Positions 1-18,715 of a DNA stretch of 62,126 nt are shown piece by piece. The position numbers and the translations under genes are program-made. The number at the start of each line of letters is the position of its first letter. Position 1 is the first letter of the stretch. This DNA is from Sporisorium sorghi. Its lineage: Eukaryota; Basidiomycota; Ustilaginomycetes; Ustilaginales; Ustilaginaceae. The stretch covers positions 1-62,126 of the forward strand of contig JALCCG010000118.1 in NCBI GenBank assembly GCA_023212695.1, in the 5' to 3' direction. The notes beneath the pieces are model-generated. The model was not told the DNA's origin, searched no databases, and was given only the letters and a program-made list of their open reading frames with translations.

Positions 1-77
1 CCTAACCCTAACCCTAACCCTAACCCTAACCCTAACCCTAACCCTAACCCTAACCCTAACCCTAACCCTAACCCTAA
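1..77. repeat. Telomere, (CCCTAA)n
   Basis: About thirteen perfect tandem CCCTAA units open the window and stop at base 77, where unique sequence begins. Read toward the chromosome end this is TTAGGG, the vertebrate-type repeat also used by smut fungi. The C-rich strand running inward marks this as a left chromosome end. No subtelomeric satellite or helicase-type subtelomeric gene lies between the telomere and the first gene-like sequence. Confidence 0.97.
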
Positions 78-1070: not shown

Positions 1071-4000
1071 TCACTGAGCAGAGCCGCCATCGCCGCCATC
1101 GCCACCGTTGTCGACGTGCAAGTCGAGCTCGGGGTCGACCTGACCACCAGCACCACCAGCGCCAGCATCAGCTTTGCGCAGCTTGTCGACGCCCGCAGCA
1201 GCACCTCCATTGGTATCAGCAGTCGTTGCGCCGACGCTGTTCTTGGACTCGCGCACCATCTGCTGCATCTTGGCATGCTGCATCACCTCGGTCGCCTCCT
1301 CCTTGTCGTGCGCCAACTCGGCGAAATGCTCGCGAAGCACCTCGACGTCTTGCTCGTCGTATACGCCAGAGGCCTCGGCGACCTGCTCAAGTGCGTCGGG
1401 ATCGTGCGAGAGCTGGTCGCACACAGCCATGAAGTCGGCCAACTCGTCGTCGGTGGGCTGGTACAGCTTCGACGACGAGAGCAGGCTCGACTTGTCGACC
1501 GTGATGAAGCCGGGACGAGTGCCACCGATTGACGGATCGTTGCGGTGAACGTCGTTCTCGTCCCCGCTGAAGATCCTCTCGAACAGATGCTGACGAACAG
1601 GACCCTCGATCAGCTCGCGCTTGATCCAACCGTGGCCGAGGTCGCGCTTCTGCACAGCGGGCTTCTCGGCACCATCATTCTTCTGATCAACTGGCGCGAG
1701 TCTTTCCAAAAACCGGTCCAGCGAAGCTTCGAGTCTCGTCTTGAGCTGCTCCTTAGTCAACTCCTTGCAGTCATGAGCCCTTGTGAGATCGTCCGACCAC
1801 AGATGGCAAGCCATGCCTCCCTCCAGCGCTGGGACGCAAAAGAGCCCGTCGGTGTCCGTGTTGATGTTGCACGTGCCCGAGCGGAAGACATCCTCCAGTT
1901 CGGCGGCGTACCACGCTTGCATTGTCTTCAAATGCGAGGCCTTGGCGTCTTGGCATCGCTCAGGACCCATGTAGCAATGACCGTGGCTGCAGGTGGCCCC
2001 GTCTTCACGGCAAGTGACCCTGGGATCCGGTCCGAAGTCGGTGAACTTGGATGCAATTCGAGCGGCTTCCTTATGGACTTGCTCGTGGGTCATTGGCACA
2101 CCGTTGATCAGGGCAGTCTCGGGCTTTGCCTTAGCGTCAGAGCCGGAAACGTCGCGCTTGGACAGGTCCTCGATGGAGCCAAACTCGAGCGCACGCTTGA
2201 CCAGGGCTTGGCGGACGTCACGCTTCTCCTTATTCGAAATGCTGCCCTTGCCGTCACCGTCGCGAGCCGCAGCGTCGTCAACGTTAACGTCGGCCGCACC
2301 CGGAGCATACATGTCCTGCAAAGCTCCCTTGAGTCTATCCCTGAGCTGCTTCCCCTTCAACGGCTTGCAATTGCGGTTGGAACTTCCGTCGTCCAGCCAC
2401 AGCGAGCACACGCCCGATTCGTTGCACTGACTTTCGTCGTTGTCGGCAGCAGAAGCAGCATCGCACGAACCAGAAGACAACACCACGTTCAACATGATGC
2501 TGAGCGCATTTTGCAGCTGCAGCTTCTGGTCGTCCGAATACGCGATGCAGCCTGGGGTGGACAAAGAGCAGTACTCATCGCGACAGGTCGAAGAGCCCTC
2601 GGCGCAGATGCCCGAGTCCTCGGTACTGTAAGCGGCAACCTGTTGGGCGATCAGATCGGCTTGCTGGGCAACTTGCGGCTGCGTCATTTCCACGTCGACC
2701 AAGGCAGTGTTGGATCTGTGCTCGTGCGAAATGGCGGCGTAAGGCTTCGACTTGACGTTATGGTCAAGGTCCGACAGTGCTCGCTTGAAGAGATCGTAAT
2801 CGAAGCTGCGCTTCTGCAGAGGGCGCTTCGCAGCACCGTCGTCCTTGTTCCTGTGCTTGGCCGAGCTGCGAGCACCAGCCTTTTCCGGGGCTCTGGCATA
2901 GAGTTCATCACGCAGCTTGTTGTAGTCAGCCTCCAGCCTCGCGTTGGCCTGCTCCGAGGTCATCGTATGGCACTTGTGGTCCCTCTTTCCAGGCTGCGGC
3001 CACAGCTTGCACCTGCCCGACTTGCTGCAGTTGCGGCTGTCCGTATGACGACTAGGATGGCAGACGCCAGATTTGAAGACTCTTCTGAAGAGTCTCGAGA
3101 ACTCGTGGAAGTACTCGGCCTGGAACTTGGCCGACCAAGGGATGCAGTCAGGAGTTCCGATGTCGCAGTCCTCCTCGCGACACTTGGACGAGCCGTGCTT
3201 GCAGTGCCCCTTCTCGAAAATCTCCGTGATGAGCTGCTTGGCGGTCTTGTCGGCAAGGATAATGACCTGGTCCTCGGTCATGCGCACTCCATTGAACAGG
3301 GCAGTCTCGGACTGCTCGTCTGAAGGCGCCATTGATCGCTTGCGCAACCAGCCCTTCTCCGCATCGGCCTCGAGCTGGTTGATCACAAACATCGTGTCAT
3401 AGGCAGCCTCGAGCCACCTTTGGAATTGCTTCGAGGTCGGCTCGGCACAAGCGTGATCGCGAGTACCATCGGACGACCACAGCTTGCAACGGCCGGTGGG
3501 AAGGCAGCCGCTGTGGCTGTGGCTGGGATTGCAAGTGCCCGAAGTCATCACCGACCTGTAGATGGACAGGAACTTGAGGTAAGCGTCGTGCTTGACCTTG
3601 TCCGAGTAAGCGATGCATCCAGGCTTGCCGAGATCGCAAAACTCGGTGCGACAGGTCGACGACTTTGGATCACAGTAACCGACGCCGTCGAACTCGTAAG
3701 TGTTGGCATACTTGGCAGCCTTATCGGCGAGGACGTAGACGTGCTTCAAGGTCAGCTTGACACCGTGGAAAGTGGCAGTGTTGTCATCCTCGTCGGAAGA
3801 CGTCGCTCGCTTGAACAGATGGTGGTCGAGATTGCGCTTCTGCCGAGGGCGCCTTTCAGCACCGGCACCAGCACCAGCCTCCGCGTCAGCACCAGCATCG
3901 GCACCAGGCGTGTTGGTAGCAAACTTGTCGTCCATTTCAGCCTCGAGCCTCGACTGAACCTCTTCAGAGTCCAACTGCGTGCAGTGGTGGTCGCGCTCGC

Positions 4001-7000
4001 CATTTACCCAGAGCTGGCACTGCCCGAACTTGTCACAGTTGACGCTCTCGCCGTCGTTAGCAGCAGCAGCAGCGGCGGCGGCGGCTCGAGCGTTGCAAGT
4101 ACCTGACTTGAAGACCCGCCTGTAGACGGCCGCAAACTTGTGCTCGTACTCGTCGATCACCTCTTCCGGATACGCAATGCACCCAGGCGTACCGAGCTCG
4201 CACGACTCTCCGTAGCAGGTCGACGAGTTTTCATCGCAGTAGCCGAGCTTGTAGAAGGCAAGAGCGACGGCTTGCGAGGCGGCTGAATCGGCAAGCTTGT
4301 TGACTTGTTCCTCGGTCATCTTGACGCCGTGGAACTCGGAAGTCTCGGGATGCTCGTGCTCGGAAGAGGACGATACGTCGTGCTTGATCTTATGCTTGTT
4401 CGAGCCAACGGCCCACGGGGTCGCACTGACGCCTAGTTCCTCCAAGGTCACGAGCAGCCTGTGATGGAACTGCCGTTTGGTGAGCTGCGCGCAGGCTGTA
4501 TCGCGCGTGCCATCGCCAATCCACAACATGCATCGACCTGAAGCGTCGCAGTTGCCGCTCTCCTTGCCAGAAGCAGGAGGGCAAGCGCCGGTGAAGAACG
4601 CCTCCGAGTACGCCATGACATACTTGTCCTCGATCGCCGCAGCCTCTACTTCCGTGAAGGGACGGCAGCCCGGAACGCCGAGAAAGCACTCATGGTTCCG
4701 GCAAGTCTCGGACTCCTCGCCGCAGTGACCAGCGATCTGGACGGCAAGATCGGTGGCATGTGCGGCAGCCTTCAAGACATGGTCAGAAAGCTGTTCTTGA
4801 GTCATCTTGACACCGGCGATCTCGACAGTCTCACTGTCCAAAGAGGAAGAGTACGAGGGAACGTTGCGTTTTGTCTCGGTGTCAGAGTTGCGGTGGGCGG
4901 GCAACGTGGACTTGACAGTGTTGTCCGAGGAGGAAGTCGATCCGTCGCGCTTCACCTTATCTCCAGCGACATGGCTCCCGGAAGCGAAACGAGCGCTGGA
5001 TAGGGCTCGCTCGATCAAGCCGGAGTCGACCTTGCCATTGACGTCCTGCACGGGTTCTGTGCCGGCCTTGCCCTCGCCCTCGCCCTCGCCAGCAGTCTTC
5101 CAGTCGTCGTCGTTTTGACGATCGATCTTGGCCCCCTCGCTCCTGAATACTGCAAAGGCGGTGGTGTTGTCAGCGAACGCTGTGCATCCTTGATCGAGCT
5201 GGCCGTCGATGGTCCACAGCTTGCAAAGACCTTGCGCGTTGCATGTGACGCTGTCCTTGGCAAAAGGATCGCACGTGCCACGAAGATAAGCGTTGGTGAA
5301 CGCTGAAGTTATGCGCTCCAGGAGTCGATCGAGGTCCTTTTGCGTGAGTATTGTGCATCCAGGAGTGTGTTCCTCGCAGGGCTCCTGGCAGTTCGGGGCA
5401 TCGTCTACACAGTTACCGCCCAACCTGAAAAATTTGATATACGACTTGGCATCAACGACGGCTTTCTGAGCCAGCTGCTGAGCCGTCTTCCTTTCGCCCA
5501 GAAACTCTACAGTGCCGGAAACGATGTCGCCCGGCGACGGAACGTACTTGGGCATGTCGGTATTGGACACCACACTGCTCGAAGCCAGATATGTGTCAGC
5601 TTCGAAAGGCGGATACATCGAGAGAAGGATATAGGCGCCGTTGGAAGGATAGTTGTCGGATGAAGCCTCTTCGCCGAGGTCGAACAGCGTCTGTATACCT
5701 CCTCGCAGCATTGATTGCAAGGATTCTGGCGGCAAGGGGTGGCAGACTTTACTGCGATCGCCGTTGTCGAGGAACACATGGCAATAGTTGTGTTCCGGGC
5801 ATATGCTCGAGCCCTGTTCACAAGGACCCCCGGAGGCGACCGTGTACAGGAAGAGAAACAAGTAGGCTTGATACTCCTCCTTGTCCTTCTCTGTGAAAGT
5901 CTTGCAGTCGGGCGTCTTGAGCCTGCAGAGTAGCTTGGTGCAAACGGAAGAACCTTTAGCGCAAACTCCGTAATTGAGAACGTCCATTTCGGCGGCGACG
6001 GTAGCGATTCTCTTGATCGTAGCGTTGAACTGCTGCTGTGTGATGCCTTCGCCGTAAACCTTGGATACGCTGCGGTGCTCGTCCTTGGAGCAGGACTTGC
6101 TTGGCTGGTCTGCGAGTAATTCAACGAAACGGTCGGGTTGGAAGACGTATTGAATGTGATCATCCATCCTTTCCTCGGGACTGCGTACTAGACATTCGTT
6201 CTGGAATACGCCCTCTTCGTCGATACGTTGGCATAAGCCGTCGTTTCGACACAAGGGCGATTTTCCTTCGATGCAGGGATCGCATTTGCCAGGCACCATG
6301 TACCACCAGAAAGCCTTCTTGATCCTGTCGATCTTGGCTTGCTTCTGTTTGCTAGTGGAGGGATTGCACTTGTGCTTTGGCGTTAAGCCAAACATACATT
6401 CTCCATTTTGGCAAAAGGGGCCGTCATCGTCACACTGGCCCACTCCGTCGATTTGCTGAGCAGCAGCTTGATCGAGCTGCCTTTTGATTGCTTCCAATTT
6501 GACTTGCCAATCGCCATGAGACGGCTCGACGTTGCTAACACCAGCACCGCCGACTGGCTGAACACCGGCATTCACGGGTGCGGATCCGCTCTTGACGGGC
6601 TTGGAAGCGTCTTGAGGCCAGGTAGCAGCGTCGCCAGAAGAAGGAACAGAGCGTTTGCCGAACGTGCGAGGAACCTTTTTGGCCTGAGTGTCGGGAGACG
6701 AGGCGGCGGGCTTCAGGTCGTTGGCATCTTTGCCTTTGACGTTGTCGACAAAGTCGTAGCTACCATCCGGCTGAGGTCGAAGCTTGGAGAAGAGTTCCAT
6801 GGCTTCCTGCTTGTCGAGCTGCTCGCAGCCTACGGCCTGATCCACGTTTCCGTAACACTGCCAGTAGTCGCAGTAGCCGTTGTCGCTGCAGGACGCATTG
6901 AGAGGCGAGGGCTTGCACTTGCCAAGCGTGGATACCTTGAGGACGAGCTGCTTGGTCAGAGCCGAAAGTTGGCGTTTCTCCTCGTCCGTGTATTCAGTGC

Positions 7001-7548
7001 AGCCAGCGGCGTCGAGAGAACAGCTGTAGTGATGACAAGAAGGCGACTCGGGACCAGGACAGTGACCGGTGGTGGCGAATTGTTGGGCCAACTGTTTGTC
7101 GAGCAAGTCGCATAGGACCGATTCGTACCTCTTCTTGTACTCGGAGGGCGCGCCCTCGTCGTCGTCGGGGTAGAGCGAGCGGCGATGCTTGGGGTGGTCG
7201 CCGCCGCCACCGTTGCCAGGACCTAGGCCGGGCGAAGGAAGATCGGGGATGAAGTTGCCCTGACCGCCCTGACCGCCCTGACCGCCCTGACCATTGCCTT
7301 CGTCGCGGGAAATGAGAGCTTGAGGATGATTGTCGATAAAGCGACGCGCGAGGTATGCAGCTTGCTCACCGCCTGCATTGAAAGAAGCAAAGCAACTCGA
7401 TTAGTCACGCGCACATCACGTCTGCAGTCAAGTCGGAGGGTGGGAGGGAAAAGGGAGAGAGAGGCTTACCATTGACAATAGCGGCGGCCGAAGCCGCGGA
7501 CGCTATGCCGAGAGCGGCGAAAAGAAAAGAGTGATGGAGTTTCACCAT
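1071..7548 (-). CDS. Giant secreted cysteine-rich repeat polyprotein with Kex2 sites
   Basis: Two exons (7548-7470, then 7372-1071; intron 7373-7469) encode 2126 residues. The ATG at 7548 starts a signal peptide (MVKLHHSFLFAALGIASAASA), followed by a GGQ-repeat stretch. Ten units of about 105-120 residues follow, at roughly residues 115-215, 313-420, 468-570, 650-756, 878-990, 1040-1160, 1228-1335, 1385-1495, 1584-1695 and 1782-1895. Units 2-10 have eight cysteines and unit 1 has nine. Typical signatures are GVKMTEEQ, SSTC, LGTPGCIAYS, SGTCN, G-C-LW and RDHxC. Linkers hold many KR dibasic sites. The tail is acidic and Gly-rich. I recognise no known family; the architecture suggests secretion and Kex2 cutting into cysteine-stabilised modules, possibly plant-facing or cell-wall. 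A TATA-like box lies about 66 nt upstream of the ATG. The ORF is intact over 6 kb, so it is under selection. Function unknown. Confidence 0.9.
1617..3839 (-). repeat. Four KR-X7-KR peptide cassettes in the polyprotein linkers
   Basis: Four linkers each contain two KR dibasic sites exactly seven residues apart, at bases 3807-3839 (NLDHHLF), 2781-2813 (SFDYDLF), 2193-2225 (DVRQALV) and 1617-1649 (DLGHGWI). The shared pattern is [NSD]-[LFV]-x3-[LW]-[FVI]-KR-[AE]. A degenerate fifth copy (GLIERAL, about 4994-5014) has ER in place of KR. Equal spacing and hydrophobic positions 2, 6 and 7 make chance unlikely. The layout recalls Kex2-processed fungal peptide precursors (ustiloxin or pheromone type). 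Release of these peptides is inferred. Confidence 0.7.
1737..7091 (-). repeat. Ten-unit protein-coding tandem repeat, eight- to nine-cysteine modules
   Basis: The coding repeat lies inside the giant polyprotein. Each unit reads: MTxxQ helix, C-x6-7-C-x4-C-x6-C, a roughly 30-residue amphipathic helix, SGTC, a variable loop, C-x5-C-x-LW, then C and a further helix. The second cysteine pair is less regular. Unit 1 carries one extra cysteine. Units 5-10 (bases about 1737-4820) share the LGTPGC, GTC and RDHxC signatures. Units 1-4 (about 5180-7091) keep the cysteine spacing but little else. The DNA is diverged, so these are old duplications rather than a recent array. Confidence 0.85.
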
Positions 7549-8407
7549 CTTCGAAAAGGTGTAGCGATTCGAGTTGGGGGAGAGAGAAGCGGGGCAAGCG
7601 GGAAGGTTCTGCTGTATATATACCTTTAGCAGCAGCGAGGAGAAGAGGAGTTTGAAAATGAAGTCGTCCCACCTTGGCTGCTCTCGTCCCAGTGGCGGCA
7701 CACACACGCACAGTCGCCGCCACTGCCGAGAGCAGCTGGACCACAGGTCGTGGAAATAGGAGTGCCAGATGCTGCCACCAGTCGACCTGATGAAGAGTCG
7801 AGAGTTTCCTCGTCAACAATGATCGCAAATTGGGTGGGACGACATACAAATGAAGCCACTGTGCTCGTTTCAGCCAGGTGGGACCATGGAGTGAATGGCG
7901 AGATGAGATGGGTGGCCGCGTGTGGGCAAAAACGTTGGCAACGTTGCTGCTCTGGTTGCCAGGGAATGTGTTCGTCCTCTCGCTCGTCGAAAGAGACACA
8001 GCGGATGTGCCACCAGGCTCGCGCTCGAATGGAGGGCGTCGACTTGATCCCCTTGATCCACCTCCCTCAGCAGCAAAGAGACAAAGCCTGGAGTCGAGTG
8101 GGTCCAACGGGACTTGTGGCGGACGACATTGAGCGGGAGAATGGCCGTTGCCTCGTCGAGGTCTCGCCGAGGACGGAATGAAGGCGGCCACCGTCGTCCC
8201 ATTTTACATGGATCCGGCTGGCTGTGCTCAGTCGTCACCCACTTTCAACTCTGGCTTTCTCGCACTCTCGCTCTCGCTCTCGCACAACAAATGAGAAAAT
8301 CTCTCGGCCGCTCGTCGCAGAGTGTGTGGGTGCGTGGGTGGATTGGGTGGGATAGTGAGCCCGAATGTGTTTGTGTGCATTGTGATGAAGCGAAGTCGCA
8401 AGACAGG
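7549..8407. other. Intergenic: polyprotein promoter and EMC2 3' end
   Basis: This 859-nt stretch is the promoter of the polyprotein gene and the 3' flank of EMC2, since both genes are on the minus strand. Overlapping ORFs on both strands show no conserved motif or plausible splice signals. Apart from the TATA-like box I see nothing in it. Confidence 0.5.
7614..7622 (-). promoter_or_regulatory. TATA-like box of the polyprotein gene
   Basis: On the minus strand the sequence TATATATAC sits about 66 nt upstream of the ATG at 7548. No other TATA-like run is present in the proximal upstream region. TATA-type promoters are often found on regulated genes, which fits a secreted accessory protein; that part is inference. 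Confidence 0.45.
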
Positions 8408-18612: not shown

Positions 18613-18715
18613 AGTGGAAGGTGGGAATCGAACCCACGACCTCAAGATTTTTCCTGGGCGCCGTTCTTCACTAGATACGTTGCAATCTCACGCCAAACCA
18701 CTAAGCCTCTCCCAC
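18613..18715 (-). tRNA. tRNA-Cys(GCA) with 31-nt intron
   Basis: The minus-strand acceptor stem GTGGGAG/CTTCCAC carries discriminator U, the hallmark of tRNA-Cys. The anticodon loop TTGCAA carries GCA at 18683-18681. The intron (18679-18649) is placed one base after the anticodon, and the stem TGAGA/TCTTG closes with two G-U pairs. The T arm is GTGGG-TTCGATT-CCCAC. A TATATA element lies about 32-37 nt upstream (18747-18752). The gene sits in the HUB1 promoter. Confidence 0.9.

Follow-up and report, generated by a model that had tools for sequence, protein, structure and literature searches.

A review recognizes two groups of fungal effectors that are processed by Kex2, namely precursors from which short peptides are released and single proteins from which a pro-domain is removed (PMC8528282; here and below, statements on published work refer to excerpts of the cited texts). 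Here we describe a gene on the minus strand (7548..1071) of a 62,126-nucleotide stretch of Sporisorium sorghi DNA (the window, which begins with the first base of contig C26, JALCCG010000118.1, in the 23.17 Mb, 469-contig assembly GCA_023212695.1), whose product resembles the Kex2-processed repeat proteins (KEPs) such as Rep1 of Ustilago maydis in being a single precursor of repeated units with Lys-Arg (KR) sites between them. The KEP products named in one survey are short peptides (37 amino acids for Rep1 and 9-24 for the alpha pheromones; PMC6339444), whereas each unit of the window protein is a predicted folded domain with eight cysteines and ∼140 residues. When the values used by the pipeline of that survey are applied (four or more fragments when the chain is cut at KR or RR, and repeats over at least 15% of the chain), cutting at every KR yields 21 fragments of the window protein and the repeated modules occupy 1430 of its 2126 residues, a share that is based on boundaries set from cysteine positions and not on the size of a KEP motif. 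SnTox3 is similar in that Kex2 cuts beside a folded secreted domain (PMC8528282), but it is one protein losing an N-terminal pro-domain and does not carry many modules per chain. Kex2-processed pro-domain effectors have a Kex2 site at the end of their N-terminal pro-domain; a possible counterpart here is a conserved dibasic LARR-F site (amino acids 36-37, 7341..7346), present in 4/4 proteins (the window protein and three homologues), at which a pro-peptide might be cut off.

Three other systems invite comparison. Rsp3 of U. maydis is likewise a repetitive secreted smut protein that is partly Cys-rich and polymorphic in length (PMC5923269), but it is predicted to be non-processed, and its single Cys-rich region precedes an array in which several other types of repeat occur. 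The polyhydrophobins (Claviceps TH1 and CPPH1) also carry several fungal eight-Cys domains per chain (PMC12375992), but they differ in having Gly/Asp-rich linkers whose cutting by a protease is left open in the excerpted text of that paper, and in the CC doublets that the window modules lack. The potato type II inhibitor precursors of Nicotiana, in which the linkers between tandem disulfide-bonded domains are removed proteolytically (PMC2259423), appear closest in principle, an analogy that carries no evidence of kinship: they constitute a plant family, while the window protein has no Pfam match.

Our preferred reading, to which we assign a probability of roughly 0.6, is that the gene encodes a secreted polyprotein from which Kex2 releases folded disulfide-rich proteins that form a single new family and act outside the cell. 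An earlier note on this DNA, made from the sequence alone, had given the span 1071-7548 and a length of 2126 residues; both are right, and the frame proved to be a spliced one with one terminal stop. Exon 1 (7470..7548) holds a signal-peptide-like start (amino acids 1-21, 7548..7486) that has a typical look as judged by eye, and the N-terminus is closely alike in three homologues. The single intron (97 nt, 7469..7373, GTAAGC...CAG, hence GT..AG) is followed by exon 2 (1071..7372, with the stop codon at 1073..1071), and the homologous proteins run unbroken across the splice point.

The ten repeated modules that the earlier note had recognized were confirmed from a shared pattern of eight cysteines. 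Defining the cores as the interval from the first to the eighth conserved Cys, eight modules have eight cysteines and module 1 has nine, as had been claimed, but module 2 has nine as well; beyond the cores, C114 lies before that of module 1 and C454 after module 2. The modules, all on the minus strand, are module 1 (amino acids 95-237, 6741..7169), the divergent modules 2 (304-448, 6108..6542; very divergent), 3 (461-598, 5658..6071) and 4 (645-784, 5100..5519), and modules 5 (874-1015, 4407..4832), 6 (1036-1185, 3897..4346), 7 (1224-1363, 3363..3782), 8 (1381-1522, 2886..3311), 9 (1580-1723, 2283..2714) and 10 (1778-1923, 1683..2120). They are followed by a conserved helical C-terminal domain (about amino acids 1996-2068, 1248..1466) that was delimited by homologue comparison and a model; the C-terminal tail is kept in 4/4 proteins and gave a weak Pfam match to Mog1 (E 0.06), below the cut-off.

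For comparison across species we assembled 23 modules, comprising the ten of the window protein (W), seven of S. graminicola P0001 (G) and six of S. reilianum SRZ2 P0002 (R), with boundaries taken from Cys positions alone (36 residues ahead of the first Cys and 28 past the eighth). The eight cysteines and one Gly are invariant in 23/23 modules, and the numbers of residues between successive cysteines are 6-7, 3-5, 6-9, 27 (always), 6-19, 5-9 and 11-14, the commonest spacing being 6-4-6-27-x-5-12. The predicted isoelectric point is 4.1-6.3 in 20 of the 23 modules and 7.7, 7.7 and 8.6 in the remaining three. Segment identity in 13 hand-picked module pairs was 0.49-0.61 (0.40-0.58 without the cysteines) with a minimum in the C5-C6 loop, a profile too flat for a binding site to be named.

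The claim that the protein belongs to no known family held against Pfam (no family for exon 2, i.e. 2099 of the 2126 residues, at E 1), NCBIfam (no family for exon 2) and PDB sequences (no convincing family with exon 2 or with the module alignment), although it must be amended in that three unnamed Sporisorium homologues exist. Searching Pfam with each of the 23 modules returned 11 families, each matched by one module (best E 0.0036, for ORC6), two of them Cys-rich, namely ADAM_CR (0.17) and Notch (0.31). Hydrophobin, CFEM, Kazal and Pin-II were not among the Pfam matches of exon 2 or of the 23 modules. The hydrophobin pattern consists of eight cysteines with adjacent CC pairs, and a CC doublet occurs in 0/23 modules; this identity was rejected. 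A structure prediction of one module, which the earlier note had proposed, was obtained for module 7 modelled alone with the 23-module alignment and is confident (predicted local distance difference test score, pLDDT, 93.6; predicted template modelling score 0.82). Foldseek against the PDB and viral models, with VIA-align on the candidates, gave weak matches only, as did Foldseek with a low-confidence second model (mean pLDDT 56.4). Because a confident module prediction lacks a significant PDB match, the modelled fold may be one without a solved relative.

The case for cleavage comes from the regions outside the modules, that is, the linkers, the N-terminal stretch and the C-terminal tail. These contain 14, 15 and 9 KR dipeptides in the window protein, S. 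graminicola and S. reilianum SRZ2, respectively, against 3.4, 2.6 and 1.7 when each stretch is shuffled on its own, a four- to six-fold enrichment that 0/5000 shuffles reached in any of the three proteins. The reverse dipeptide RK occurs 2, 2 and 1 times in the same regions, and inside the modules KR is found 6, 6 and 4 times versus 3.8, 2.7 and 2.0 after shuffling (P 0.18, 0.04 and 0.14). The site described for Kex2 has Arg at P1, with Lys preferred at P2 and Leu at P4 (PMC8528282). Leu is at P4 in 18/38 outside-module KR sites (background 6.5%; binomial 4e-12, a value inflated by the relatedness of the linkers) and in 6/14 sites of the window protein alone (P 7e-5), compared to 11/140 when the equivalent position is counted from other outside-module basic residues and 3/16 at in-module KR. 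A candidate Kex2-type protease is encoded in the genome, where one match to the convertase P domain lies in a 1037-residue open frame that also holds a subtilase domain.

The sites are distributed over the linkers as follows (all on the minus strand). Linker 1-2 has a KR at amino acids 266-267 (6651..6656) within VPRTFGKR, which is identical in S. reilianum, and linker 4-5 has KR sites at amino acids 834 and 861 (4866..4952). Linker 6-7 carries a KR-X7-KR arrangement (1205-1215, 3807..3839) and linker 7-8 the single LRKR (1371-1372, 3336..3341). KR-X7-KR recurs among the sites of linkers 8-9 (1542-1557, 2781..2828) and 9-10 (1743-1766, 2154..2225) and in the linker to the C-terminal tail (1935-1945, 1617..1649). 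The latter two linkers are predicted to be disordered: in a model that spans modules 9 and 10 and the tail, the ten-residue mean pLDDT was 25-43 in the linkers, 53-83 in the modules and 67-86 in the tail helices, and the two linkers contain all five KR sites of this piece. KR is present at 6/6 inter-module junctions in S. graminicola, 5/5 in S. reilianum SRZ2, 6/9 in the window protein and 1/2 in the third homologue (P0003), and ahead of the C-terminal tail in all four proteins. The proposal of KR sites in the linkers thus stands for six of the nine junctions and for the linker to the tail, but not for junctions 2-3, 3-4 and 5-6. By-eye comparison of junction 5-6 (4380..4385), which is the junction before module 6 (R3, G4), shows KH in the window protein and KP in P0003 where the G and R homologues read KR; two proteins thus lack KR here, each in its own way.

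These missing sites bear on an alternative in which the chain stays uncut, like beads on a string, and the joined modules act together as a shield or a multivalent binder at the cell wall or on the surface of the hypha, akin to Rsp3 or the polyhydrophobins. Conservation of the C-terminal tail in 4/4 proteins, as though the whole chain mattered, speaks for it too, as does the precedent of U. maydis Rsp3, which is predicted to be non-processed and is repetitive, hypha-bound and length-variable (PMC5923269). The enrichment and LxKR form of the sites outside modules, their presence at every junction of two relatives and the predicted disorder of two linkers argue against an uncut chain, and we judge it unlikely. 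Several other observations weigh, along with the KR-less junctions of the window protein and P0003, against the polyprotein reading: 16 KR lie within modules over the three proteins, several as KRDxxC ahead of the last Cys, so that cutting might nick modules too, and cuts at every KR would split the cores of modules 1 and 8; Leu is nearly as frequent at P2' (16/38) as at P4, so that the preference is not confined to P4; the linkers are homologous and the KR-site counts therefore not independent; and a thin alignment (9 rows) may partly account for the low pLDDT of the linkers, the final 58 tail residues being low as well.

A second alternative starts from the spacing of the sites. KR pairs spaced exactly nine residues apart make up 4/7 adjacent pairs in the window protein (random mean 0.24, P 5e-5) and 2/8 in S. 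graminicola (random mean 0.32, P 0.04), which would suit a KEP-like precursor whose active products are the 7-residue linker peptides from KR-X7-KR, the Cys modules being mere carriers. However, this spacing is found in 0/3 pairs of S. reilianum SRZ2 (5, 13 and 12 instead), one S. graminicola linker reads NP at the position of the second KR, and the 7-mers are unlike one another (e.g. NLDHHLF and SFDYDLF) whereas all eight cysteines are kept in 23/23 modules. We consider active linker peptides very improbable, the 7-mers being probable cut-out spacers.

Returning to the polyprotein reading, an in-silico digest at the outside-module KR sites and the conserved LARR site gave modules 1, 7, 8, 9 and 10 as single-module products of 24.8, 17.5, 19.4, 19.8 and 18.8 kDa, modules 2-3-4 as one of 61.9 kDa, modules 5-6 as one of 37.0 kDa, and a tail of 19.2 kDa. 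With KR at only 6/9 junctions, seven Cys-rich products (17.5-61.9 kDa) are therefore expected and not ten. The suggestion in the earlier note that Kex2 releases many small proteins is in keeping with the KR enrichment, the Leu at P4, the disorder of two linkers and the conservation of the sites, while the products would be fewer and partly larger than it had envisaged. In the process that we propose, the signal peptide would be removed first, each module would fold with up to four disulfides and the fungus's own Kex2 would cut the KR sites in exposed flexible linkers, releasing what should be stable fragments: modules 1, 7, 8, 9 and 10 singly, the 5-6 pair, the 2-4 triplet, the helical tail and short linker peptides. 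The released proteins would most likely be diverged binders of extracellular proteins of the plant or of competitors, and recombination between modules would alter module number.

The three homologues all come from Sporisorium: P0001 (S. graminicola EX895_002457), P0002 (a conserved hypothetical protein of S. reilianum SRZ2) and P0003 (S. reilianum f. sp. reilianum SRS1_14168). They are 39-42% identical to the window protein across 54-60% of the query and share with it the signal start, the LARR site, modules, KR linkers and the C-terminal tail, but have 7, 6 and 3 modules, respectively, instead of 10. Within the S. sorghi genome no second locus surfaced, as a module query at E 10 matched this gene alone (8/10 modules) and exon 2 matched only itself; a phage collection gave no match. 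The 23-module alignment recovered no single-module relative at E 0.1 among 347 candidates from 5.8 billion proteins, in a search that requires shared 5-residue words and restricts length; as a homologue search of this kind missed P0001 despite its fitting length, distant relatives could be missed and we make no claim that U. maydis and other smuts lack the family. Among the titles listed in searches of open-access papers, none concerned a protein of this kind, and the locus tags EX895_002457 and SRS1_14168 appeared in none of the open-access main texts searched.

In a tree of the 23 modules, the forks passing the support mark were W1+R1 (99/92), W5+G3 (98/97) and W10+G7 (100/100), module 1 grouping with both R1 and G1. 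Weaker forks joined W6+G4 (94/82), W7+G5 (83/84) and W8+R5 (84/77), and W9+W3 stood beside G6; 8 of 20 inner branches were below the support line of the tool, and the placement of modules 2, 3 and 4, whose end branches are very long (2.3-5.1), is unsure. From the cross-species pairings it follows that several modules were probably distinct before the species split. Turnover is most readily seen between P0002 and P0003, in which 735 of 764 aligned residues are identical, with one single-residue gap and one gap of 492 residues (P0002 amino acids 536-1028 versus P0003 amino acid 536). The latter is an exact in-frame difference of three modules that extends over the interval between the eighth cysteines of modules 3 and 6, with these two modules fused in the shorter protein. 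A simple explanation would be recombination between the homologous ends of modules, although an assembly error in the repeats may instead lie behind it. We take SRZ2 to be S. reilianum f. sp. zeae, which would make this a difference between formae speciales.

With respect to function, we infer that the products probably act outside the cell at the plant interface, and we favour plant defence proteins or competing microbes as targets in light of the telomere-proximal position of the gene in the window, the narrow distribution seen, the fast divergence and the module turnover, none of which is decisive. A further point on the opposite side is that S. graminicola, a carrier of the gene, is a former Pseudozyma, a group described as having no known parasitic stage (PMC10262431), which keeps a role without a host in play. 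The gene might thus encode a yeast-stage or cell-wall secreted protein, cut or not, which is compatible with Kex2 processing and with the occurrence of the gene in S. graminicola, a glycolipid-producing yeast (PMC6797523, PMC10262431). Only Sporisorium relatives surfaced, however, their divergence is high (the 39-42% identity given above), module number varies between formae speciales, and former Pseudozyma yeasts are reported to retain effector sets (PMC10262431); we regard the absence of a host-interaction role as somewhat unlikely.

The gene is the first intact one from a chromosome end, as the earlier note had said: a telomere array of 12.8 CCTAAC units (1..77, plus strand) starts at the first base of the contig. 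A coding-looking fragment at 78-503 directly adjoins the array and occurs once in the assembly; Pfam gave no match to its longest frame (87-500), and the fragment may be the terminal part of a gene truncated by the chromosome end. On the other side of the gene, TATATATA at 7615-7622 on the minus strand, 67-74 bases upstream of the start codon, is a candidate TATA box. Of ten open reading frames scanned against Pfam (in 8584-54535, together with the telomere-side fragment as one of the ten), eight matched families, namely EMC2-like TPR, TIM, SYO1-like, Cns1/TTC4, NDUFA12, Rad51, Cupin_8 and G-patch. As these are mostly of housekeeping type, ordinary genes seem to begin ∼8.5 kb from the telomere. 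Rfam gave a single match at gathering score for the window, a tRNA on the minus strand (18613-18715).

A more specific version of the polyprotein reading is that the locus represents a third class among the fungal secreted proteins that Kex2 matures, a cassette of new-fold domains cut by Kex2 into a cocktail of diverged disulfide-rich proteins, in which recombination adds, removes or fuses domains while gain and loss of KR sites set which are delivered as singles, pairs or triplets. Where formae speciales with separate hosts carry unlike cassettes, the locus would be a device of host adaptation. We offer this version tentatively, at odds of about one in three in its favour put loosely, and short of even. 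If the polyprotein reading is true, a chain of this kind, as the source of many folded disulfide-rich proteins, would bridge the two classes of Kex2-processed effectors and account for the joint delivery of several extracellular proteins from one gene. The module itself may represent a fold with no solved counterpart. The six- and three-module versions in the two formae speciales of S. reilianum, which differ by an exact in-frame event, allow a test of whether module number is linked to the host.

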